Positions 522 through 43,774 of a stretch of 62,248 bases of DNA are shown here, piece after piece (position 1 is the first letter of the stretch; every line of letters begins with the position of its first letter). The position numbers were made by a program, and so were the translations under genes. The notes below the pieces were generated by a model. The model was given only the letters and a program-made list of their open reading frames with translations, did not search any database and was not told where the DNA came from. This stretch comes from Acidobacteriota bacterium. Lineage in GTDB: Bacteria > Actinomycetota > Acidimicrobiia > ATN3. The stretch spans positions 1 through 62,248 of the forward strand of contig QEUQ01000014.1 of assembly GCA_003577105.1 (NCBI GenBank), written 5' to 3'.

Positions 522-1109
522 TTGACCAGGCCGCGTGTACTTCTGGCCGAGGACGAAGCAATTATCAGGCTCGATCTGCGTGAGACCCTTGAAGAAGAGG
601 GCTATGAAATCGTTGCCGAAACCGGCCGAGGCGACGAAGTCGCAGACCTGGTTGACGAGTGCAACCCGGAGGTCGTGATCCTAGACGTGAAGATGCCCGG
701 CGAAGATGGCATCTCAGTTGCCCGAAAGCTTGCAGCTGAGCGCAAGGCCGCGGTCTTGATACTTACGGCTTTCAGTCAAAGGGAGCTCATCGAGCAGGCC
801 CGTGACGCAGGCGCACTTGCATATCTAGTGAAGCCCTTCCAGCGAGCAGACCTTGTTCCGGCGATCGAGCTTGCCCTTGCCCGCCACAGGGAGATGCGAT
901 CGCTAGAGGAAGAAGTCGGTGGGCTTGAACGGCAACTCGAATCGCGCAAACTCGTCGACAGGGCCAAGGGCGTCATCATGGATCGACACCACCTCAAGGA
1001 GGCCGATGCTTTCCGGCTCATTCAGCGCACCGCGATGGAGCGGCGGCTGACAATGGGGCGGGTCGCCGAGTTGATAATCGACGGCTCAATTGAGGTCCCA
1101 GCCGAGTAA
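522..1109 (+). CDS. pdtaR: ANTAR-domain response regulator (PdtaR type)
   Basis: The 195-residue protein has an N-terminal CheY-like receiver domain (about 4-122) with the acidic pair at D11, phosphoacceptor D55 in LDVKMPG, switch T82 and K104 before proline. A short coiled linker leads to a C-terminal ANTAR RNA-binding domain (about 135-190, with AKGVIMDR and AFRLIQRTAM). ANTAR proteins bind paired hairpins in mRNA and promote antitermination, and in mycobacteria the close homologue PdtaR acts with the kinase PdtaS. The start is TTG 522 with CGGAG upstream. No partner kinase is adjacent; the orphan kinase at 17.4-19.2 kb is one candidate. The gene lies about 14 kb from polA, in line with its neighbourhood in mycobacteria. 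Confidence 0.92.
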   Translation: MTRPRVLLAEDEAIIRLDLRETLEEEGYEIVAETGRGDEVADLVDECNPEVVILDVKMPGEDGISVARKLAAERKAAVLILTAFSQRELIEQARDAGALAYLVKPFQRADLVPAIELALARHREMRSLEEEVGGLERQLESRKLVDRAKGVIMDRHHLKEADAFRLIQRTAMERRLTMGRVAELIIDGSIEVPAE

Positions 1110-1121
1110 GCGCGTCGACTC

Positions 1122-1892
1122 TCAGTACGCGTAAAGGTTGCCGTACGGCCTCTTCGAGAACGGATAGAGTTTGGCAATCAAGCCGTCTTCAAGCATCTGC
1201 CTCAGGTCTTCCGGATCACCCCCGAAGTTCTCGCAATACGAGTCGATGTGGGGCATGAGCATGTCTATGTCATCTTGATCGACATCTGCAAAGCCGACTT
1301 CTTTGCCTACCTGCCAGTCCTCGATCGGCTGACGAATGAACATCAATCCGCCATGCATGCCAGTTCCGCAGTAGTTCCCGACTACCGACTCGTTTGCAGC
1401 TACATCTAAGCCGAGCACGCACAGCACGCCGCCCGCCATGTATTCGCCGAGGAAGTTTCCTGCTCGTCCGCCAACGATCATGACCGGGACTTTCTCACCG
1501 AACTCCTTCATGTGGATCCCGACCCGGTACCCGACGGAACCTCTGATGAAGAGCTTGCCGCCGCGCATTCCGTATCCAAGAACGTCGCCGGCGTTTCCGT
1601 GAATCACTACGGTTCCCGAGTTCATGGTGTTAGCCGAGCCGTCTTGGACGTTGCCCTTGCAGACGATGGTGGGGCCATCCATGAAGACCGCAAGGTCGTT
1701 CCCCGGAACGCCGTCTATCTCAAGGCGGGCCTCGGAAACTAGGCCCGCGCCAATGAAGCGCTGCCCGTTGACTCCCTCTAGCTTGATCTGATTTGCGCCG
1801 GACTCGAGCGCCTCGCGAATCAGTTCATTGAGCTGTCTGTAGTGAACGCCGGACGCGTCAATTACGGTCGCTTCAGCGAGATTGGCCGGCAA
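1122..1892 (-). CDS. glutamate synthase GXGXG domain protein (GltB3 type)
   Basis: The 256-residue protein is the free-standing C-terminal beta-helix domain of the glutamate synthase large subunit, rich in repeated G-x-x-G-x-G turns (HGNAGDVLGYGMRGG, GGRAGNFLGEYMAGG). In archaeal-type split enzymes it associates with the glutaminase (GltB1) and FMN synthase (GltB2) parts. The other pieces lie upstream on the same strand at 3.2-7.8 kb, but this gene is separated from them by a lipoprotein gene and by an opposite-strand metalloprotease gene, so it needs its own promoter. The start is TTG 1892, supported by GGGAGG 8 bases upstream. It is convergent with the ANTAR regulator, 12 bases apart. Confidence 0.9.
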   Translation of the reverse strand: MPANLAEATVIDASGVHYRQLNELIREALESGANQIKLEGVNGQRFIGAGLVSEARLEIDGVPGNDLAVFMDGPTIVCKGNVQDGSANTMNSGTVVIHGNAGDVLGYGMRGGKLFIRGSVGYRVGIHMKEFGEKVPVMIVGGRAGNFLGEYMAGGVLCVLGLDVAANESVVGNYCGTGMHGGLMFIRQPIEDWQVGKEVGFADVDQDDIDMLMPHIDSYCENFGGDPEDLRQMLEDGLIAKLYPFSKRPYGNLYAY

Positions 1893-2038
1893 GAGCTGAT
1901 CCTCCCGATGCCTGGGGGTCGAATTCGTGCAATTCTACAGTGTCTTGGAGCCAAGGACCCACGCAAAATGCGAGGTAGAAGTGGCGATCACGCATTGCCG
2001 AGCACAATCCCGACCGTGCTGAGAACAGGACTCGCGCC

Positions 2039-2425
2039 GTGAGAGTGGCCGTCTCCGAGGCCGAGTTCGAGGCCATGGTCAGGGACGCGCTCGACGCGGT
2101 TCCCGATGAATTCATCGATCAACTCGAGAACGTCGCGATTTCTGTGGAGGACTATCCGGATCGCGACGACTTGATCGCAGTTGGGCTCGATCCCGAGACG
2201 GACTTTGACGACCTGCTCGGCCTATACGTGGGATATCCCAAGATCGACCAAGGGCATTGGGACCTCGTAATGCCCGACAAGATTTCGATCTACCGGCACG
2301 CCTTGTGCGACCACGCAAGTGATCTTGAGGACCTGGCCACTCAGGTCAAGAAGACCGTTCTGCATGAACTTGGGCACTACTTCGGTTTATCGGATGAGCG
2401 TCTCGGCGAACTTGGCTGGCACTAA
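2039..2425 (+). CDS. small zincin-like metallopeptidase
   Basis: The 128-residue protein belongs to the short metallopeptidase family common in Actinomycetota. The zinc motif lies almost at the C-terminus: H109-E110-L-G-H113, with D119 as a possible third ligand, in HELGHYFGLSDERL. The N-terminal two thirds are acidic and include the family-typical LLGLYVGYP segment. No signal peptide is present, so it should be cytoplasmic. The substrate is unknown. GTG 2039 is used as the start. It is divergent from the gltB3-type gene and convergent with the lipoprotein gene, which puts it inside the glutamate synthase cluster without any obvious functional link. Confidence 0.82.
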   Translation: MRVAVSEAEFEAMVRDALDAVPDEFIDQLENVAISVEDYPDRDDLIAVGLDPETDFDDLLGLYVGYPKIDQGHWDLVMPDKISIYRHALCDHASDLEDLATQVKKTVLHELGHYFGLSDERLGELGWH

Positions 2426-2458
2426 CGCCCTTTGGTTTTAGCGAGTCTCGCGATCGGC

Positions 2459-3241
2459 TCAGCGCGGAGCCGCCGCGACCTCGTCAAAGCAGGCCGCAGT
2501 CGAGCCGCTGACCCACAGGCCAACCATGCCAGTCGGAATCACCTCGGTCGAACCGCGGGCAACGGAGACGTCGTCGATGAACAATTCGACTTCGCCGCCA
2601 AATGCTCGAACCCTCAGCAGATGCCACTGACCCGCACCCAGATCGAAACTACCGGAGGCGATCGTAGCCGTCGCCCTCGGCCGAATCCGCAGCAGTTCCG
2701 CGCGCTGGTCGTCTGCCGAAATGCGCCCTAGATATAGATCGTCACCGGCACGAACACTAAAGGCCAGTCCCGCGCTTGCCCCAGGAGTCAGCGCGCTCAG
2801 CGCTACATAGGCGGAAAGATCGACGTTTGCAAAGTAGGCGCCATCGGCAATGGCGATGTCGCCCTTGCGCTGGCGGCCCTTCTCAACTTCATAAGGTGAC
2901 GAGACGCTGGTTTGCGATGGCTCGTGACACAAGGACTGGTAGTAGCGGGGTGACGGATACCGGCGATCGATGCTCCATTTCCCGCCGTATCCGGTGAACT
3001 CGGCCGGCTCGGCGGTGTCAGTCTCAGTCTCGAAGAGCCAGAGCCGCGGTGGCGCCATTGGAATCGGATTCGCCGGGACTACCGGGTCGGGAGCCTCTCC
3101 CAGACCGACCTCGGCGGCCGAATTCGACTCTCGCTCGGGCGACCGGCAGCCCGCAATGCCTAGCAGGGTTGCCATCATCAGTAAGCAGACAATGCACATC
3201 CGACTCAATTTGGTGCGGCTTGAGCCGGGCTGGTGTGACAC
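2459..3241 (-). CDS. lipoprotein with a LamG/DUF1080-like beta-sandwich domain
   Basis: The 260-residue product has a hydrophobic signal segment ending in a lipobox (LGIAGC, Cys near residue 32), so it should be lipid-anchored on the outside of the membrane. A proline-rich linker follows, then a concanavalin-like beta-sandwich domain (about 75-260) of the kind seen in LamG or 3-keto-disaccharide hydrolase-like proteins (GQWHLLRVRAFGGEVELFIDD). GTG 3241 lies 3 bases after the gltB2 stop, which favours translational coupling; ATG 3199 with GAGTCGG upstream is an alternative and would keep the signal. Carbohydrate binding is inferred from the fold only. Its place inside a glutamate synthase operon is unexplained. 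Confidence 0.72.
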   Translation of the reverse strand: MSHQPGSSRTKLSRMCIVCLLMMATLLGIAGCRSPERESNSAAEVGLGEAPDPVVPANPIPMAPPRLWLFETETDTAEPAEFTGYGGKWSIDRRYPSPRYYQSLCHEPSQTSVSSPYEVEKGRQRKGDIAIADGAYFANVDLSAYVALSALTPGASAGLAFSVRAGDDLYLGRISADDQRAELLRIRPRATATIASGSFDLGAGQWHLLRVRAFGGEVELFIDDVSVARGSTEVIPTGMVGLWVSGSTAACFDEVAAAPR

Positions 3242-3244
3242 GCG

Positions 3245-3508
3245 TTACTGTCCGGCCGGCTTCACCCCGAGAATTTCGCAAGTCTGGGCATCGAGGTCTA
3301 TCGCGCGCAGCCGCTCCCTGTTACCCCGGAGCGACTCAATGGCGTTCACCCCGAGAGAGCCCATGAATTCCTTTATCTCGCGCGACCATCCGCGCAGAAG
3401 GTTCGAACAGCGTTCCGCGCCCCAGTCCGGGGGGATCCGATCAACGAGGTAGGGCACCTGCGTGGTGATCCCCCATGAGCACTTGCCTGTGTAGCACTTC
3501 TGGCAGAG
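3245..3508 (-). pseudogene. frameshifted C-terminal continuation of gltB2
   Basis: This reading frame encodes LCQKCYTGKCSWGITTQVPY and then about 65 further residues, ending in ILGVKPAGQ. This is the expected C-terminus of a glutamate synthase FMN domain, including the cysteine cluster. It is displaced by frame from the main gltB2 frame, with the switch at about 3508-3513. Relative to family members, the usual stretch between GADAV and the cysteine cluster is also about 9 residues short. A small deletion (about 28 bases) or a sequencing or assembly error would both explain it. It is not an independent gene. Confidence 0.75.
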
Positions 3509-4794
3509 GGTGCAACAACTGCGTCTGCGCCAAGTGCGATTGCCTTGACGGCATCGGCCGAGGAGCGCAGCGATCCGCCCGCAATGATCGAGGCCAGGTG
3601 GCGAATTCCCTCAGCCCTGAGGCGATCGTCAACAGTGGCAATGGCGATTTCAATGGGGAGACCAATGTGATCGCGGATCATCGTCGGTGCCGCGCCGGTG
3701 CCGCCGCGATACCCGTCGAGAAAGACCCAGTCCGCACCTGCCCTGACAATCCCGGAGGCGATGGCTGCGACGTTGTGCACCGCCGCGATCTTGACTCCCA
3801 CCGGCTTGTAAGAAGTTGCTTCCTTGATCGCGTAGATCAGCTGGCGAAGGTCCTCGATCGAATAGATGTCGTGGTGCGGGGCCGGACTGATCGCGTCGGC
3901 GCCGATTGGAATCCCTCGGGTCGTGCTGACGTGTTCGTCGACCTTCTCGCCGGGCAGGTGGCCACCAATGCCGGGCTTTGCTCCTTGTCCGACCTTGATC
4001 TCAGCGGCTACGCCTCGGTTCAGGTAGTCGGGATCAATGCCCATTCGGCCAGAGGCAATCTGGACGATAATCGCGTCCTGAAGAGGAAATAGGTCTCGGT
4101 GGAGGCCACCCTCACCCGTGTTCATAAAGGTGCCGTGTTCATGGGCGGCCATCGCCAGTGACTTGTGGACGTTCAGGCTGACTGCTCCGTAGGACATCGC
4201 TGCCCACATCACAGGGATCTCCATGACGAGGGGCTCTTCTGTGCGGGCCCTGAGGCGGAAGTGGGCATCGTCGGTCCTGTCCACCTCGACCATGTCGGGG
4301 TGGCGTCCGAGGAATGTCCGGAGTTCCATCGGCTCTCTCAGTGGGTCTATCGACGGGTTGGTCACCTGGCACGCGTCGAGCATCAAGTGGTCGAAGATGG
4401 TTGGCAGCGGCTTGTCGTAGCCCATTGCCGTGAGCAGCACTCCACCGGAGGCCGCTTGCTTCCAGACGTTGTCGCGGTTGAAGGCCGTCCAGTGTGCGTT
4501 CTCGCGGTAGGTTGTCTCGTTGCGCTTGATGGTTATGGCTTGGGGCGGGCAGTAAATGACGCAGCGCTGGCAGGCCGTGCACTTGGCGTGCTCGGGGATC
4601 GGGCCGTCATCAAAGGTGAAGTCAAAGACGTCCCAGCCGCACTCGACCACACAATCTCCGCACTTGGTGCAGCTGTCGTCTATTACAACTTTGAATTCGG
4701 GCGGTAGCTTGGCTTCCGGTTTGTGACCGACGGTGAGTACACGTCGGCGCTTGGATTTCACATCAAGAGTCATTGCATTTGTCCGTTCATGCAC
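3373..4794 (-). CDS. glutamate synthase FMN domain with N-terminal ferredoxin domain (GltB2 type), frameshifted
   Basis: This is the synthase core that uses FMN to reduce the 2-iminoglutarate formed from 2-oxoglutarate and ammonia. Residues 40-90 form a 2x[4Fe-4S] ferredoxin domain (C42, C45, C48, C52 and C72, C75, C78, C82). Residues about 100-430 form the FMN-binding TIM barrel, with GQGAKPGIGGHLPG and VFLDGYRGGTGAAP. After GADAVVA the frame runs into about 40 non-homologous residues and stops at 3373, while the true C-terminus continues in the next frame (3245-3508). As read, the C-terminal cysteine cluster is lost and the enzyme would be defective. The start is GTG 4794, 3 bases after the GltD-like gene; ATG 4773 is possible. 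An internal sequence error cannot be excluded. Confidence 0.88.
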   Translation of the reverse strand: MHERTNAMTLDVKSKRRRVLTVGHKPEAKLPPEFKVVIDDSCTKCGDCVVECGWDVFDFTFDDGPIPEHAKCTACQRCVIYCPPQAITIKRNETTYRENAHWTAFNRDNVWKQAASGGVLLTAMGYDKPLPTIFDHLMLDACQVTNPSIDPLREPMELRTFLGRHPDMVEVDRTDDAHFRLRARTEEPLVMEIPVMWAAMSYGAVSLNVHKSLAMAAHEHGTFMNTGEGGLHRDLFPLQDAIIVQIASGRMGIDPDYLNRGVAAEIKVGQGAKPGIGGHLPGEKVDEHVSTTRGIPIGADAISPAPHHDIYSIEDLRQLIYAIKEATSYKPVGVKIAAVHNVAAIASGIVRAGADWVFLDGYRGGTGAAPTMIRDHIGLPIEIAIATVDDRLRAEGIRHLASIIAGGSLRSSADAVKAIALGADAVVAPSARSATQASAHGGSPRRCPTSLIGSPRTGARNAVRTFCADGRAR

Positions 4795-4797
4795 ATC

Positions 4798-6639
4798 TCA
4801 TTTAGCCGTCCGCAGCAGGACGGGCTGAGGCTGCACGTAGTAGTCCTTCATCACCAACGTTCCGGTTGGGCAGTGGGTTGCGCAAAGGCCACATCGAATA
4901 CAGGCGTCATCGTCAATTAGGATTGACGCGCTGTCACCGGGCGAGGACGCGGGCAGGACATCGTTATCTGGCATCCCGCGACGGGGAAACATGATCTCTT
5001 TCGGATCCACCAGTGAACCGTCCGGGCGGAGCAGGTCGATCGTGTCCTTTGGGCAAACTTCGACACACGCGCCGCAGACCACGCACGGCGACTCGGTCTG
5101 GCTCACCTGAATGTGGCAGAAGTAGCACCGTTGAGCTTGTTCGATGGCCATTTCGGGGGAGTATCCGACTTCCACCTCAGTCGTGAAGTCATCGCGTTCG
5201 GCGACCGGAATTACCGGCTCTTCCTCGCGAGGCATTTCGTAGACATGCATCTCGCGCTTGTACCCGCGAAGGGTCGATGACTCGAGTGTCTTTTCGAGTG
5301 GGTTCGTGCCGCCAAGGAAGCGATGGATTCCCTCGGCAGCCCGGTGCGCATCAGCCACGGCCTCGATGACACTGGCTGCACCTAGGGCGAAGTCGCCGGC
5401 AGCGAAAAGGCCCTGGTGGGAAGTCATGCCGGTATCCGGCGCCACTTTGATTCCGCCCCAGCGCGTCAGTTCGAGCTCGATGTCAATCCACGACAGGTCA
5501 GGTTCCTGGCTGATGGCCGCAATGACAATGTCGCACTCGATTTCAAAGTCGGAACCCTCAATAGCCATGGGGCGGCGGCGCCCTGAGGCGTCTGGGACTC
5601 CGAGGCGGTTGCGTACGCACTTCAGCGCGCGGACAGCGCCGTTGTCGTCTTTCGATACCTCAAGTGGAGATGCCAGTAGTACCAACCCGACACCCTCGAC
5701 CTGGGCTTCGTGGATCTCTTCGGGAGTCGATGGCATTTCGTCCATGCCGCGCCGGTAAACCATTTGGACTTCAGATGCGCCTAGGCGCACGGCAGAACGC
5801 ACGCAGTCAACGGCCGTGAATCCGCCACCGATGACAGCAACCCGCTTGCCAGTGAGATCGAGGTTGCCCCCGTGCTCTCGAGCTTCTTCGGGCGCGTCGG
5901 AGGTCAAGTTGATCTTCTCCATGAACCAGAGCCCTGGATAGACGCCTTGCGCGTCTTCACCCGGGATATCGAGTCGCATGGGCTTCTGACATCCCGCTGA
6001 GACGAGAACTGCGTGATGCATGCCGAGAAGTCTTGAGAGTGGAATGTCACCGCCGATCTTCACGCCGCACTGGATCTTCACGCCGTAGTCGAGCAGGTCA
6101 GCAATTTCGGCCTCGACGATGTCGCGCGGGAGCCGGTAGGCAGGAATTCCGGCGACGAGCATGCCGCCGGGCATTGGCAGGGATTCGTAGACCGTCACGG
6201 CATGCCCGAGAAGGGCCAGGTCTTGCGCGGCGGCGAGCCCGGCGGGACCGGCACCCACAATGCCCACGCTCATGCCGTTGGGCGGTTGAGGCTCGGGCAT
6301 CATCATGCGCCAGCGGTCGCTCTTGAAGTCTGATGAGGCTCGCTTCAGCGCGCGAATTGCTACGGGTTCATCATCGTCAGCCCGCCGGCAGGCAACCTCG
6401 CACGGGCGGGTGCACACCCTTCCGAGTACACCGGGAACGACGTTGTAGATCTTGTTCAGAGCGTACGCCTCGTCGAAGCGTCCCTCTGAAACGAGCCAGA
6501 TGTACCTTCGGGCATCGGTGTGAGCCGGACACGCTGCCTGGCACTTGACCTGCTCTTCTATATAGTCGGGAGCAATCTCCACCAGGCCGAGCTCGTCTTC
6601 TTGCTCAATCGACGGGGTCGGCAGCTCAATGCTCGTCAT
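4798..6639 (-). CDS. gltD: GltD-like NAD(P)H:acceptor flavoprotein with Fe-S domains
   Basis: The 613-residue protein is the electron-input subunit of an archaeal-type glutamate synthase. An N-terminal cysteine region (C33, C37, C76, C80, C84) is typical of the GltD/DPD family and carries [4Fe-4S] clusters. A FAD-binding GAGPAG motif lies at 129-134 and an NAD(P)-binding GGGFTA motif at 271-276. From about residue 500 an added ferredoxin domain carries two CxxCxxC...CP motifs (CVVCGACVEVCP and CIRCGLCATHCP). Electrons probably run from NAD(P)H via FAD and clusters to GltB2. It overlaps the gltB1 stop by 4 bases (ATGA) and is followed 3 bases later by gltB2, so the three are one operon. Confidence 0.92.
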   Translation of the reverse strand: MTSIELPTPSIEQEDELGLVEIAPDYIEEQVKCQAACPAHTDARRYIWLVSEGRFDEAYALNKIYNVVPGVLGRVCTRPCEVACRRADDDEPVAIRALKRASSDFKSDRWRMMMPEPQPPNGMSVGIVGAGPAGLAAAQDLALLGHAVTVYESLPMPGGMLVAGIPAYRLPRDIVEAEIADLLDYGVKIQCGVKIGGDIPLSRLLGMHHAVLVSAGCQKPMRLDIPGEDAQGVYPGLWFMEKINLTSDAPEEAREHGGNLDLTGKRVAVIGGGFTAVDCVRSAVRLGASEVQMVYRRGMDEMPSTPEEIHEAQVEGVGLVLLASPLEVSKDDNGAVRALKCVRNRLGVPDASGRRRPMAIEGSDFEIECDIVIAAISQEPDLSWIDIELELTRWGGIKVAPDTGMTSHQGLFAAGDFALGAASVIEAVADAHRAAEGIHRFLGGTNPLEKTLESSTLRGYKREMHVYEMPREEEPVIPVAERDDFTTEVEVGYSPEMAIEQAQRCYFCHIQVSQTESPCVVCGACVEVCPKDTIDLLRPDGSLVDPKEIMFPRRGMPDNDVLPASSPGDSASILIDDDACIRCGLCATHCPTGTLVMKDYYVQPQPVLLRTAK

Positions 6640-7838
6640 GGCGATGCGCTCACCTCCTCGGTGACCGAAAGGCCCTCACTCGCACCGGCGGCCTGACCTT
6701 CGCCCGATGACAGCTCTGATCCACCGTCCGCAGCGTAGTAGCGCGCTATGACAGGTTCACCGGCCTCGGGGTGCCATGAGCGGTCTGGCTCCGGGCAAAT
6801 AGCGCGGATCGCTGACTCCTCGCTCGAGACGAAGACCTTGTCGCCATGTTCTGCCGCCGTTAGGGGCCGCAACTTGATTCGGTCATTGAGCGCGCAGAAG
6901 CCATCGGCGAATCCAAGGATGATTGCAAACGGTCCGTTGGCGGCGGCCGGCCCGTAGGTGCGCCGGAGTGCAGTCATGAGGGCGCCGTCTTCGGAAGACA
7001 TTCTTGCGATGTCGCTCCAAAACGGTGGCGCTACCACCTTGCATGCCAGCTCCAGGGGTAGCCCGTGCCTGCGAAGTAGCAAGTCGTAGATATATGCGAC
7101 CACTTCGGTGTCTGTGCCGAGGGTGCAGAGGTACCCGTGCATCTCGAGGTATCGCTTGTTGATTCCGTAGCTGGTTATCTCGCCGTTGTGAACGATCGAG
7201 TATTCCAAGATGCAGAACGGGTGGGCACCTCCCCACCATCCCGGCGTGTTTGTGGGAAAGCGGCCATGCCCAATCCAGCACGATGCCTCGTACTCATCGA
7301 GCCGGTAGAAGTCCCCGACATCGCGCGGAAATCCCTTCGCCTTGAATGCGGCCATGTTGCGCCCCGAGGAGAAAACATATGCGCCGTCTATCTCCGAGTT
7401 GATCTCCATGACAATGCCGACCACAAGGTCGTCTGGGTTCTGGCCGTCAGCGAGGTCGTCCTCGCGAAATTCACAGAAATACCTGTGGAGCAGGGGGGCG
7501 TCGGTGATTCCGGCTACGGTACGTGTAGGTATGGCCTCAGCGTGATCGACTTCGAAGCGGGCACGGAGAAACTCCTCGCAGATCGCGCGTGCCCCCTCGT
7601 CGTTGTACATAAGATGAAAGGCGTAGTGGTTGGGATGCTCGGGATAGAGGCCGTAAACCGCATAGCCGCCGCCGAGGCCGTTGGAACGCTCATCCATGCA
7701 GGCCATGGCGTCGATGATGTCCTGCCCGGGCCAGCGCTTTCCCGCGCGGTCGATCACGCCAAAAAGCCCGCACCCGCCGTGTATCTTGAACGGCGATTCC
7801 TCTCTGAAATTGCGCGCGTCGAAGCCAGCTCGCGTCAT
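6636..7838 (-). CDS. glutamate synthase glutaminase domain protein (GltB1 type)
   Basis: The 400-residue protein is a class II glutamine amidotransferase (Ntn hydrolase) supplying ammonia from glutamine. The likely catalytic nucleophile is C23 in HGGCGLFGV, so a 22-residue propeptide must be removed to free it, as in other glutamate synthases. Family motifs include GHGRFPTNT and VHNGEITSY. The acidic and small-residue C-terminal 30 residues look like a tail. ATG 7838 has AAAGGGG 12 bases upstream. It is the first gene of the operon gltB1-gltD-gltB2 and is preceded by a leader of about 94 bases containing a terminator-like hairpin (7892-7921). Confidence 0.92.
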   Translation of the reverse strand: MTRAGFDARNFREESPFKIHGGCGLFGVIDRAGKRWPGQDIIDAMACMDERSNGLGGGYAVYGLYPEHPNHYAFHLMYNDEGARAICEEFLRARFEVDHAEAIPTRTVAGITDAPLLHRYFCEFREDDLADGQNPDDLVVGIVMEINSEIDGAYVFSSGRNMAAFKAKGFPRDVGDFYRLDEYEASCWIGHGRFPTNTPGWWGGAHPFCILEYSIVHNGEITSYGINKRYLEMHGYLCTLGTDTEVVAYIYDLLLRRHGLPLELACKVVAPPFWSDIARMSSEDGALMTALRRTYGPAAANGPFAIILGFADGFCALNDRIKLRPLTAAEHGDKVFVSSEESAIRAICPEPDRSWHPEAGEPVIARYYAADGGSELSSGEGQAAGASEGLSVTEEVSASP

Positions 7839-7860
7839 TGCGTTGTTTTACCCCTTTGGA

Positions 7861-7882
7861 CTGGGCACCGATCCGTGCCCGG
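7861..7882 (-). promoter_or_regulatory. second leader hairpin able to pair with the terminator arms
   Basis: On the minus strand, GGGCAC (7880-7875) and GTGCCC (7868-7863) can form a 6-bp hairpin. The same sequences can instead pair with the upstream terminator: CCGGGCAC (7882-7875) is perfectly complementary to GTGCCCGG (7911-7904), and TGCCCAG (7867-7861) to CTGGGCA (7919-7913), giving a nested 15-bp alternative fold. It ends just before the ribosome-binding site at 7857-7851. Any switching role is inference from complementarity. Confidence 0.45.
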
Positions 7883-7891
7883 TGTTGTGGC

Positions 7892-7921
7892 AAAAAAAAT
7901 AGCCCGGGCACTTGCCCAGGC
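7892..7921 (-). terminator. intrinsic-terminator-like hairpin in the gltB1 leader
   Basis: Read on the minus strand, GCCTGGGC, a 4-base loop (AAGT) and GCCCGGGC form an 8-bp GC-rich stem with one G-U pair, followed by TA and eight T residues. This is a textbook intrinsic terminator. No minus-strand gene lies upstream to be terminated, because the neighbour is divergent. It sits about 10 bases after the predicted transcription start of the glutamate synthase operon, so attenuation is the natural reading. Confidence 0.75.
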
Positions 7922-7938
7922 GTCGTTGCCGGACCAAA

Positions 7939-7967
7939 AATCTAGGCTGTAGCGAGCGAATTGTCAA
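7939..7967 (-). promoter_or_regulatory. sigma70-type promoter of the glutamate synthase operon
   Basis: On the minus strand a perfect TTGACA -35 (7967-7962) is followed after 17 bases by a TAGATT -10 (7944-7939). Transcription should start near 7932, giving a leader of about 94 bases before gltB1. It is the best -35/-10 pair seen in the window. Its -10 shares two base pairs with a plus-strand TAGGCT at 7943-7948. Confidence 0.75.
7943..7948 (+). promoter_or_regulatory. candidate -10 hexamer TAGGCT for the ABC transporter operon
   Basis: TAGGCT lies 26 bases before the ATG at 7975 and overlaps the -10 of the opposing glutamate synthase promoter. No clear -35 is seen at the right distance. If used, the two promoters could not be fully occupied at once. 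Confidence 0.35.
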
Positions 7968-7974
7968 CTGAAAT

Positions 7975-8733
7975 ATGAACAATACTGAGTTGGTGCGAGT
8001 CGCCGGGGCATCTAAGAGCTTCGGACCTCAAGTCGTGCTGAGCGAGTGCGACCTGGTCGTCAACCAGGGAGAATTCGTGGCAATCCTCGGGCGTTCGGGC
8101 TCGGGAAAATCGACATTGATCAACTTGATCGGCGGCTTGGAGCGACCGGACGCCGGCGAGATCCACGTTGACGGATTTCGCGTCGACAGGATGAGCGAGT
8201 CACGACTCGCCCGGTTTCGCCGGCGGCGAATCGCGTTTGTCTTTCAGTCGTTCAACCTCCTGCCGCACCTGACGGCAGTCGAGAACGTGACCCTCGCAGC
8301 TAGGCTAAATCGCACAGGGGGGCGGCGGGCCGCTGAGGCTTTGCTTGACCAGCTCGGCGTGGCCCATGTCATGGGGAAGCGGCCCGGGCAGCTATCGGGG
8401 GGCGAGCAGCAACGAGTCGCGATCGCGCGGGCGGCGGTAGCGCGACCGAAACTGCTGCTCGCAGATGAGCCGACAGGCAGCCTCGATTCGACGTCTGCCA
8501 AGGCAGTTATCGAATTGCTGACAATGGTCCATAGCGGGGAGATGACGATAGTCACCGTTACCCACGCCGCAGATGTCGCGGAGTCGGCATCGAGGGTCGT
8601 GACCATTAGTGACGGAGTGATAGCCCATGACAACGAGCGCAATTCTTCTCCGGTCGGCCATGACGTGGAGAACGGCACCCGCGAAGCGGGCAAACGAGAC
8701 GCACAGCGAGACGCACAAGAGGAAGACCGGTAG
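7975..8733 (+). CDS. ABC transporter ATP-binding protein (LolD/MacB type)
   Basis: The 252-residue ATPase has Walker A GRSGSGKST (39-47), Q-loop Q91, signature LSGGEQQR (140-147), Walker B LLLADEPTGSLD with E165, and H-loop H197. It belongs to the lipoprotein-release/macrolide-export class that powers FtsX-type permeases, which act as mechanotransmitters rather than classic importers. The C-terminal 35 residues are polar and unstructured. The adaptor gene starts at the base after its stop. No permease follows on this strand; the only FtsX-type permease nearby is the opposite-strand gene at 11769-14063, which is the likely partner. Confidence 0.93.
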   Translation: MNNTELVRVAGASKSFGPQVVLSECDLVVNQGEFVAILGRSGSGKSTLINLIGGLERPDAGEIHVDGFRVDRMSESRLARFRRRRIAFVFQSFNLLPHLTAVENVTLAARLNRTGGRRAAEALLDQLGVAHVMGKRPGQLSGGEQQRVAIARAAVARPKLLLADEPTGSLDSTSAKAVIELLTMVHSGEMTIVTVTHAADVAESASRVVTISDGVIAHDNERNSSPVGHDVENGTREAGKRDAQRDAQEEDR

Positions 8734-11768: not shown

Positions 11769-14063
11769 CTAGTCCTCTCTGAGCGCCGAGGCTGGTCGCT
11801 TCAGAGCCAGGCGCAGCGACATCACCGCGCCAATGGCGCATCCTGTTAAGACGGTGATCGTGATGATCAGGTTCTGAGGGGCTTGCCCGACCATCTCCGC
11901 ACCCGTGACGCCCAATGACTTGAGGATCGAGCCGAAGACCAGCCCTGTAAGTACACGCGAGAGCGGGATTGCAGCGAGGCCGGCGAGCAGGCCGAGGAGG
12001 CCACCGTAGAGGGCAAAGCCGGCAAGGAGAGTGGTGGTCGAGCCGCCGATTGTCTTGACGATTGTCATCTCCTTGGCGAATTCTCGCAGCGTCAGGAGCA
12101 TGATCAGGACGAGCGCGAGAATTCCCGTCGCCATGACGACTATCGAGGAGGCAGTCATGGCCAATGTCAGCGGGCGCGTGATGGCGTTCGTGTCGACTCC
12201 AGAGCCGCGGGCTTCGACGTTTCCGTTTGAGAGGGTGAAGATCGAATGCGCCACGGAGTCCGGGTCCGATTCGGGATCAACGCGGACCATGAACGAATTG
12301 AGCCGGGGCGCAATCCCAAGTCCGAGTAATGTCTCAACGGAAATCTCGCCGACATCACCCATTCCCCTGAGGCCTCGGATCACGCCGACAATCTCAACGC
12401 TCGCGGGTACGCCTCCGATCTCGAGGTGAACTGTGTCGCCGAGTCTCGCCCCAATTCGCTGGAGGGCGCCTGGTCCAAGGAGTATCTCGCCGGTGCGCGC
12501 AATGGGCCTTCCTTCGAAGATCGCGGGGCGGTGCAGATCCTGGGAAATCTCAAACGCCTCGAACCAGTACGACTTGCCTGCCTGATCTCTCACCTGGGGT
12601 ACCCCGTAGCGAGGCGCAGCCGCCGCGACGCTGGGAACTGAGCGCATCAGCTCTTGGATTCCCTCATAGGAGATCCCACTACCCGACGCAGTGAGGTCGA
12701 AATTGTCGCCCGAGAAATTAGAGGAGAGATTCTCTGAAAAGGACTTTGCCCCGGTTGCGCCAAGGATTACCGAGAGCGTCGCGGCCACAGCGAGTATTGC
12801 CATGATCGCTCTAGCCGGCCGGCGAGTCAGAAAGCCCGCGCCAATCGAGGCCACCGGGCGGGACATGATTGGGGCCGGGGGAGTGAGTCTTCTGGTTCTC
12901 AGAACCGGAGCCTTGCGCAGTGCCGCTGCAGTCCTAATTCTCGCAGCGGCCAGAGACGGGTAGATCGAGAAGAGCGCCGCGATCATTAGGACAGTGGTTG
13001 CCATGCCGGTGACCCAAGCGATGTCAAAGCGCGGCTCGGAAATCCCGTCGACGAGTTCGGCAGCCCAGGTTGCGATCGCCTTGTGTGTGGCGAGTCCGAC
13101 AAGAGCTCCGAAAATGACACCGGCAAGCGCAACGGCAAGTGAGCGAATCAGCATTTGCGCGGCGATGTTCACCGGCGTGTGCCCGATTGCCTTCAAGATG
13201 GCTATCTCGCGAGATTCCTCGACGACCGAGGCCTGCTGGAGCATTGCCACCAGAAGAGCCGCGCCGATTGTCGCCAGCATTGCGACGCCCGCCACAAATC
13301 GTTCGATCACCGTCGAGAGGCTCGCTCGGAACTCCCTGTATTCGGGAGTCGTCAGCCCTTCGTAGACCACGAAGCCGCTCGCCTCGACGTCATCAATCAC
13401 TCGCTGCTTGTTTCCCGCTCCGATCGGAGTCGTGGACTTCACAAGTAGTCGTTCAGGTCTCGGTGCCACGCCGAGCGCCGCAGCGGTGGCCGGCGACGCA
13501 TACAGCGTCGCAGGCCGAAATAGCGGATAGGGCCCTTTTGACGGATCGCTCACAGTCCCAATTACGCGAGCCTCGAGTGCGCGATTGCCCAGATCAACTC
13601 TGGCCATGTCGCCGATTCTTATGCCGGCCTCCGAGGCGAGGCGGTCCTCAAGAATCACGGCCGGCTCGCCGGGAACTGCAAGCGCGCGAATCTCGGTGCT
13701 ACCCGACCGAGGTATCAGTTGCCAGAACTTCGGTGACTCCTCCATTACCTGTAGGGAGATACGAATCGAGCTTGACTTCAGCGCGAGGCGGGTTCCTCCC
13801 GGGATCGCGCAGCGCACTTCCGCCGAATATGAGGGAGGAAGATGAGCTGCTTGGGCTTGTGCCGAGGCGCAGGAGCTGCCTCCCACCCAGAGGCTCATGT
13901 CGGCCCCGTTCTGGCGCTCATATGTGGAATCGAATGCCGCCTTCGTTGACGACGAAAAGATGGAGCCGGCCATTACGAGGGTCGCAGCCACCGAGAACGC
14001 GGCGAACAAGAGGAGCGCCCTGCCCGGATTGCGGATCGCTCCGGAGAGGCCGAGGGGCATCAT
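11769..14063 (-). CDS. MacB/FtsX-type ABC transporter permease
   Basis: The 764-residue protein is a duplicated FtsX-type permease: an N-terminal helix (about 15-35), a large extracytoplasmic domain, a three-helix FtsX unit (about 255-370), then a second helix-extracytoplasmic domain-FtsX unit (helices near 415-435, 640-665, 685-710 and 725-750). This topology belongs to macrolide, peptide or lipoprotein export and mechanotransmission systems. It lacks an ATPase domain and probably uses the ATPase at 7975-8733. It starts 12 bases downstream of a DtxR-type repressor gene on the same strand, so the two should be co-transcribed, which hints at metal-linked control. Confidence 0.9.
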   Translation of the reverse strand: MMPLGLSGAIRNPGRALLLFAAFSVAATLVMAGSIFSSSTKAAFDSTYERQNGADMSLWVGGSSCASAQAQAAHLPPSYSAEVRCAIPGGTRLALKSSSIRISLQVMEESPKFWQLIPRSGSTEIRALAVPGEPAVILEDRLASEAGIRIGDMARVDLGNRALEARVIGTVSDPSKGPYPLFRPATLYASPATAAALGVAPRPERLLVKSTTPIGAGNKQRVIDDVEASGFVVYEGLTTPEYREFRASLSTVIERFVAGVAMLATIGAALLVAMLQQASVVEESREIAILKAIGHTPVNIAAQMLIRSLAVALAGVIFGALVGLATHKAIATWAAELVDGISEPRFDIAWVTGMATTVLMIAALFSIYPSLAAARIRTAAALRKAPVLRTRRLTPPAPIMSRPVASIGAGFLTRRPARAIMAILAVAATLSVILGATGAKSFSENLSSNFSGDNFDLTASGSGISYEGIQELMRSVPSVAAAAPRYGVPQVRDQAGKSYWFEAFEISQDLHRPAIFEGRPIARTGEILLGPGALQRIGARLGDTVHLEIGGVPASVEIVGVIRGLRGMGDVGEISVETLLGLGIAPRLNSFMVRVDPESDPDSVAHSIFTLSNGNVEARGSGVDTNAITRPLTLAMTASSIVVMATGILALVLIMLLTLREFAKEMTIVKTIGGSTTTLLAGFALYGGLLGLLAGLAAIPLSRVLTGLVFGSILKSLGVTGAEMVGQAPQNLIITITVLTGCAIGAVMSLRLALKRPASALRED

Positions 14064-14075
14064 CGTCGAAGCCTG

Positions 14076-14735
14076 CTACGAGATCGCGACGTAAAGGTTC
14101 TCAGAGATCTCTGCACCGATGGCCACGGTGGCGCCATCGGATCGGAGCACCAACGTTCCGTCAGGGGAGACCTGCGCAACCACAAATGGCGCGCCCGGCC
14201 TAACGCCATTGTCATCGAGGAAGCGAACCAGCGCGAGGTCAACCTCGATGGTCTCGGTGATGCGTTCAATTGTCACGCTGTCACCCGAGCTCGCTCGGGA
14301 CAGAGGAATGAGATCATTTCGCGGCACGCCCAAGCCGGGTATCGGATTGCCGTGAGGGCAAGTCGCGGGTTCTCCGAGGACCTCGACCAGCCGGGCCTCG
14401 ACTGCATCGCTTATTACGTGCTCCCAGCGAGCTGCCTCCTCGTGGACCATATGCCACTCAAGTCCGAGAATGTCGGTCAGGAGCCTCTCGGCCAGCCTGT
14501 GCCGGCGAACCACCGACTCTGCCCGTCTGCGTCCATCGGCCGTGAGCTCAATCTCGCGGTTCTCGCCGACCGTTACCAACCCGGCCTGCTCGAGCCTCTT
14601 GAGCATGGCCGAGACGGAAGGTGCCGAGTAGCCAAGGCGCTCTGCGAGGCGTGCTTGAATCACGGCGATGCCGTCCTCTTGCATCTCCCTGATTGTCGAG
14701 AGGTATTCCTCTTCGGGCGGGTGATATCCATGCAT
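14076..14735 (-). CDS. DtxR/IdeR/MntR-family metal-dependent repressor
   Basis: The 219-residue protein has an N-terminal winged helix (about 8-65, RLAERLGYSAPSVSAMLKRLEQAGLV), a metal-binding dimerisation domain (RHRLAERLLTDILGLEWHMVHEEAARWEHV, then CPHGNPIPG, which supplies the conserved Cys/His region) and a C-terminal FeoA/SH3-like domain. Family members bind DNA when loaded with Fe(II) or Mn(II). ATG 14735 follows a TAGAAT -10 hexamer by 7 bases, so the transcript is probably leaderless. It is divergent from polA and shares an operon with the permease. Metal specificity cannot be told from sequence alone. Confidence 0.92.
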   Translation of the reverse strand: MHGYHPPEEEYLSTIREMQEDGIAVIQARLAERLGYSAPSVSAMLKRLEQAGLVTVGENREIELTADGRRRAESVVRRHRLAERLLTDILGLEWHMVHEEAARWEHVISDAVEARLVEVLGEPATCPHGNPIPGLGVPRNDLIPLSRASSGDSVTIERITETIEVDLALVRFLDDNGVRPGAPFVVAQVSPDGTLVLRSDGATVAIGAEISENLYVAIS

Positions 14736-14742
14736 GAGTTGG

Positions 14743-14748
14743 ATTCTA
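14743..14748 (-). promoter_or_regulatory. -10 hexamer TAGAAT for the DtxR-family gene
   Basis: TAGAAT on the minus strand ends 7 bases before ATG 14735 with no Shine-Dalgarno sequence between them, the pattern of a leaderless mRNA. The polA promoter lies only about 35 bases away on the other strand, so a repressor bound here could affect both. Confidence 0.5.
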
Positions 14749-14781
14749 GGGTGATCGGGTGCCGGGCGATGCCATGCCACC

Positions 14782-43688: not shown

Positions 43689-43774
43689 GTCGGAGTGGCG
43701 GAATATGGCAGACGCGCTAGGTTGAGGGCCTAGTCCGGGTTAACCGGGTGGGGGTTCAAATCCCCCCTCCGACA
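43689..43774 (+). tRNA. tRNA-Leu (anticodon GAG)
   Basis: The 86-base class II tRNA has acceptor arms GTCGGAG (43689-43695) and CTCCGAC (43767-43773) with discriminator A, anticodon stem CTAGG/CCTAG and loop TTGAGGG with anticodon GAG at 43724-43726, a long variable arm, and a T arm with GGTTCAAATCC. CCA is not encoded. It reads CUC and CUU leucine codons. It directly follows secG, as in other Actinomycetota. Confidence 0.95.

Follow-up and report, generated by a model that had tools for sequence, protein, structure and literature searches.

Why an intrinsic terminator should stand between a promoter and the first gene of a glutamate synthase operon is the question raised by the gltB1 leader in the 62,248-nt stretch of DNA analysed here (the window). 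The upstream neighbour, an ABC transporter gene at 7975, is divergent, so the terminator ends no gene. The preliminary description had made this point, proposing premature termination under some condition, and terminators at the same position in sister genome G001 and in many other split-gltB1 operons, with a covarying stem, lend such attenuation good support.

Promoter, terminator and hexaloop hairpin of the gltB1 leader

The gltB1 gene is preceded on the minus strand by a sigma-70 type promoter (Table 1). This promoter had been called perfect, which applies to its -35 hexamer (TTGACA, 7967-7962) and not to its -10 hexamer (TAGATT, 7944-7939), placed after a 17-nt spacer. Transcription is predicted to start at about 7930-7935, leaving 0-5 nt ahead of a hairpin closed by a hexaloop. 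The GC-rich hairpin and eight T residues reported downstream of the promoter were confirmed: the hairpin (7921-7902) has 8 pairs, 7 of them G-C, and the U8 tract lies at 7899-7892. This is the sole strong U-tract terminator within the window. A scan of the window with Rfam at gathering score matched a tRNA (43689-43774) and found no riboswitch, T-box or other leader family, in agreement with the earlier statement that no known riboswitch is present. The folding z-score of the whole leader was unremarkable (-1.39), and the stability of the fold alone is thus no argument for a regulatory structure.

The preliminary description, which reported no antiterminator, had overlooked both the hexaloop and an ANTAR gene: an antiterminator hairpin does precede the terminator and matches what is expected of an ANTAR target. 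In the fold predicted for the first 27 nt of the transcript, seven pairs enclose the hexaloop AACGAC (7927-7922), which has both A at position 1 and G at position 4 (A1/G4, or A..G); with a start a few bases 3' of 7934 the outer pairs would be gone and three to five would be left. The 3' arm of this hairpin is the start of the terminator 5' arm, the common segment being 7921-7914. An A1/G4 hexaloop overlapping a terminator is the hallmark of ANTAR targets (PMC3369931). At the gltB1 leader such a loop is carried on a stem of at least three pairs (GGC-AACGAC-GCC), the hairpin overlaps the terminator 5' arm and, on paper, excludes it, and the genome has exactly one ANTAR gene, adjacent to the operon. 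The window holds this one A1/G4 hexaloop-terminator site, and among 300 first-order Markov copies of it none combined an equally strong terminator with an A..G hexaloop.

Table 1. Features of the gltB1 leader, the split glutamate synthase operon and the neighbouring regulator gene
Feature	Position	Strand	Basis
Sigma-70 type promoter TTGACA-N17-TAGATT	7939..7967	-	10/12 consensus matches
Antiterminator hairpin GUCCGGC-[AACGAC]-GCC-u-GGGC	7914..7934	-	Fold prediction, -8.7 kcal/mol (first 22 nt); leader alignment
Intrinsic terminator GCCUGGGC-AAGU-GCCCGGGC, UA, U8	7892..7921	-	Predicted -16.1 kcal/mol; stem covaries
Downstream hairpin, can pair with terminator arms	7861..7882	-	Sequence; window-specific
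Probable ribosome-binding site AAAGGGG of gltB1	7851..7857	-	Sequence
gltB1, glutamine amidotransferase class II subunit of split glutamate synthase	6636..7838	-	Pfam PF00310; relatives about 50-68% identity
gltD-like NAD(P)H oxidoreductase with Fe-S domains	4798..6639	-	Pfam
gltB2, FMN-binding glutamate synthase domain	3373..4794	-	Pfam PF01645
gltB3, GXGXG domain	1122..1892	-	Pfam PF01493
ANTAR response regulator, PdtaR/EutV-like	522..1109	+	Pfam PF00072 and PF03861

Conservation and specificity of the hexaloop-terminator arrangement

A search of the closest 148 genomes for gltB1 gave one true relative, and the comparison was therefore extended to the phylum and beyond; all related sequences are genomic, many of them metagenome assemblies. 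G001, the only other genome of the same order in the comparison, has the operon gltB1-gltD-gltB2-gltB3 with a single ANTAR gene convergent at its end, so that both members of the order carry one ANTAR gene per genome, adjoining the glutamate synthase operon. Its leader repeats the arrangement: a promoter (TTGATG-17-TAGCAT) is followed by the hexaloop hairpin GGGC-AAAGGC-GCCC and the terminator CGCCCGAGCC-UAGAC-GGCUCGGGCG with U6.

Terminators were located blind to loops at about 140 split-gltB1 loci. An A..G hexaloop over the 5' arm was present at 30 of the 43 terminators just upstream of gltB1, whereas 43 of 729 elsewhere (about 6%) had one (Fisher p = 5e-24, a value that is too small because genomes of one family are related; kinship lies within families f40 and f53, and a few sites entered the count twice). 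Each of the other 15 combinations at loop positions 1 and 4 was seen at only 0-1 of the 43 leaders. When sites were picked by A and G alone, at least three consecutive pairs enclosed the loop in 28/38 leader sites vs 53/406 elsewhere. The hexaloop-positive leaders come from at least 10 lineages (f1, f2, f40, f53, f81, f96, L035, L058, L071 and L107). An ANTAR gene was present in 51 of the 70 genomes with split gltB1, namely in 22/23 of those with the gltB1-leader hexaloop vs 29/47 of those without; the lone hexaloop genome lacking one is 84% complete. Within the phylum set about 19 loci have an ANTAR gene linked to split gltB, and such linkage was also seen in Bacillota and Elusimicrobiota.

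Covariation, proposed earlier as a check on the leader stems, was found in one of the two. Pairing in the terminator stem is 98.8% among 12 Actinomycetota leaders; 4 of the 7 pairs of this stem show double changes, and its covariation score was matched by 0 of 500 shuffles. The inner hexaloop stem is invariant in the same alignment (GGC-AANGNN-GCC), and its three pairs thus give no covariation. Across lineages this stem has C-G or U-G, then mostly G-C (some A-U), then a variable pair.

Two models were built. R1 had the window and G001 in its training set and is for this reason not counted as independent support for either. In eleven genomes its top site, usually the sole one, was the gltB1 leader. 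In the window's own genome its sites L216 and L218 were rejected as lacking a proper hexaloop; since 150 of 1423 candidates were scored there, weak further sites may have escaped. The held-out model R2, trained on other families without the window and G001, ranked the G001 leader first among the 148 class genomes (25.1 bits, E 1.8e-3). It gave the window's own leader 13.7 bits (E 0.073 in 78 kb), which is not significant alone, and the identity of this leader consequently rests on its position, its loop, the sister genome and the gene neighbourhood. In small genomes of the class R2 gave weak hits that resembled coding sequence more than leaders, and these were set aside.

The proposed ANTAR regulator and a model for attenuation

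The ANTAR gene, the only one in the genome, faces the final gene of the operon in convergent orientation. Its product resembles Rv1626/PdtaR of M. tuberculosis (PDB 1s8n, E 2.7e-64), the closest solved homologue, and EutV (6wsh, E 2.1e-37); it has the receiver Asp (D in VVILDVKMP) and an ANTAR domain with the RNA-contact residues. The RNA contacts of EutV include R142, K143, K147, K149, E160, Y164 and M172 (PMC8934654). At these positions the window protein, like Rv1626, has R, K, R, K, E, F and M: R142, K143, K149, E160 and M172 are kept, K147 is replaced by R and Y164 by F (an alignment that assumes a two-residue offset between the chain and the published numbering). One PdtaS-like HisKA_2 kinase gene lies elsewhere in the genome, a further likeness to the PdtaS/PdtaR pair. 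In the window genome two other genes, a lipoprotein-like gene (2459-3241, minus strand) and a Zincin_1 metallopeptidase gene (2039-2425, plus strand), occupy the interval 1893-3372 between gltB2 and gltB3. Because gltB3 is split from gltB2 here and the operon is apparently intact in G001, gltB3 may need its own promoter; the separation of gltB3 from the operon counts against the ANTAR model set out below. Further along the window, a DtxR/MntR-type metalloregulator gene (14076-14780) adjoins an FtsX-type permease gene (11769-14063).

Taken as a whole, the leader is very probably a transcription attenuator relieved by a phosphorylated dimer of the ANTAR protein whose gene lies at the operon's far end. 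RNA polymerase would begin at about 7932, and in the default state the RNA it makes would fold into the GC-rich terminator, so that transcription stops at U8 before gltB1; in the predicted refolding, the hexaloop hairpin gives way to the terminator once the 3' arm is made. Once phosphorylated by a histidine kinase, for which the genome's single PdtaS-like HisKA_2 enzyme is the probable candidate, the ANTAR protein would dimerise and hold the hexaloop hairpin with which the RNA begins. Since the GCC.GGGC segment of this hairpin also belongs to the terminator 5' arm, the terminator would be unable to form and gltB1-gltD-gltB2 would be transcribed. We infer the binding, the phosphorylation and the direction of control from EutV and PdtaR.

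The model has a close counterpart in the E. faecalis eut system (PMC3369931, PMC8934654), where the A1/G4 hexaloop hairpin likewise shares a segment with the terminator 5' arm and EutV is a response regulator with a C-terminal ANTAR domain. Unlike the eut leaders, which have two hexaloops, both needed in vivo (eutP; PMC3369931), the gltB1 leader has one, at the 5' end of the transcript, and its target is a glutamate synthase operon. In Desulfotomaculum reducens, ANTAR targets have been predicted at glutamate synthase genes (Ramesh et al. 2012, PMC3369931); target pathway and regulator class are the same there, but those sites belong to Bacillota and were found with a dual-hairpin search model, whereas the window leader is actinomycetotal and single-looped. 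A survey of actinobacterial ANTAR targets accepted dual stem-loops alone (Mehta and Ramesh 2021, PMC8164766), and glutamate synthase is not mentioned in its text. Its RNAs come from the same phylum and have A1/G4 hexaloops; many of its sites lie at ribosome-binding sites or start codons and few have terminators, in contrast to the window site, which overlaps a terminator.

Alternative explanations, single hexaloops and ammonium assimilation

Control of translation was suggested by the preliminary description, which saw sequences complementary to both terminator arms downstream. The stretches CCGGGCAC (7882-7875) and GUGCCCAG (7868-7861) are indeed present and their 8-bp and 7-bp complementarity is real; in addition, structure predictions place the final G bases of the ribosome-binding site in pairs with the U-tract region, so that the downstream hairpin and U-tract/GGGG pairing could hide the start site and the nested pairing could act as a switch. 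The complementary pair chiefly folds on itself, however (GGGCAC-GGAUCG-GUGCCC, 7880-7863). Access to the ribosome-binding site is predicted to be nearly equal with antiterminator or terminator formed, and the G001 leader, with about 20 nt from U-tract to ATG, has no counterpart of the downstream hairpin. An action of the nested pairing on translation or RNA stability is thus not supported, and we give this explanation little likelihood. The same hairpin occurs once in the genome, which ruled it out as a repeated operator. An attenuator of another class, a riboswitch or the target of another protein, in which the A/G loop is a coincidence, would be in keeping with the empty Rfam scan if the element is undescribed, and with the background of such loops at other terminators; against the specificity for the loop class, the conservation in G001 and the ANTAR linkage, it is very improbable. 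With a strong terminator about 40 nt from the promoter, the leader could also specify a short transcript, a small RNA gene, with gltB1 read from another promoter. We found no second promoter in the roughly 54 nt between the U-tract and the gltB1 ATG at 7838, and the arrangement recurs at gltB1 in many genomes, which makes this last proposal scarcely credible.

The remaining alternative accepts ANTAR control and supposes a canonical attenuator with two hexaloops, the first having been overlooked because transcription starts further upstream or its loop is degenerate. The ANTAR attenuators studied experimentally have two loops (PMC3369931), as do many relatives of the gltB1 leader (family f40, L035 and Coriobacteriia-type loci), and a very weak candidate, GU-AAAGCG-AU, precedes the loop of G001. 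Yet no second A..G hexaloop with at least three pairs was found upstream in the window or G001 leader, where the predicted start in the window leaves hardly any room. The f53 leaders, whose TTGACA-type promoters are mostly perfect (12/12), have the loop 20-22 nt past the -10 box, a distance too short to fit another loop before it; the window loop starts 8 nt past this box. We consider an overlooked first loop unlikely. Since the tandem pair of hexaloops that defines the classic ANTAR target is lacking, the gltB1 leader is assigned to a single-hexaloop variant and not to the classic type.

Single hexaloops were seen in the window, G001, f53, f81, f96, L058 and L071, and at L107, L158 and L169 the candidate second loops fall on the promoter itself. 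The structure of EutV with RNA led to the conclusion that an ANTAR dimer binds a single hexaloop at any one time; the minimal motif was redefined as one hexaloop, the extent of its natural use being left as a question (PMC8934654). On balance we favour the view that minimal ANTAR attenuators are widespread, one hexaloop hairpin at or within about 20 nt of the 5' end and overlapping the terminator being sufficient. They would occur at glutamate synthase operons of Actinomycetota (f1, f2, f53, f81, f96) and also of Clostridia and Elusimicrobiota, often with one regulator and one target per genome, and would have been missed because published searches required two loops. Since each of these leaders has by nature one loop, together with a consensus promoter and a single obvious regulator, they make the sufficiency of one hexaloop directly testable, and they bear both on the one-dimer, one-hexaloop conclusion (PMC8934654) and on the eut genetics that call for two.

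In other phyla, similar sites were seen ahead of glnA, amtB, a P-II gene and an ANTAR gene (genes named from translations); hexaloop-terminator leaders precede genes for glutamine synthetase, an ammonium transporter, P-II and an ANTAR protein at L046 (2247, 4554), L068 (653, 3945, 6343), L071 (10022) and L164 (5956). The one extra R1 match in the eleven genomes, outside the training set, L244 (G450:C9:6374-6433), has a single hexaloop and a terminator-like hairpin with a poor U-tract; it precedes a second glutamate synthase-like FMN-domain gene in G450, judged by eye from the translation. At the Coriobacteriia-type loci L036, L039, L089, L145 and L146 a dual-hexaloop attenuator lies before an HdrB-like gene upstream of gltB1, a position which suggests that a heterodisulfide-reductase-like module forms one unit with glutamate synthase.

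The leaders at L046, L068, L071 and L164 make it likely that ANTAR proteins control a regulon for ammonium assimilation in Bacillota and in part of the Actinomycetota. In the organism of the window, the switch for ammonia assimilation is probably an RNA-binding protein that works through one loop in place of the usual two. In little-known Actinomycetota, the lone PdtaR-like ANTAR protein would thereby gain a target and a pathway, ammonium assimilation, and the comparisons suggest that the link known in Bacillota between ANTAR proteins and glutamate synthase extends to a GS/GOGAT/ammonium-transport network over several phyla.
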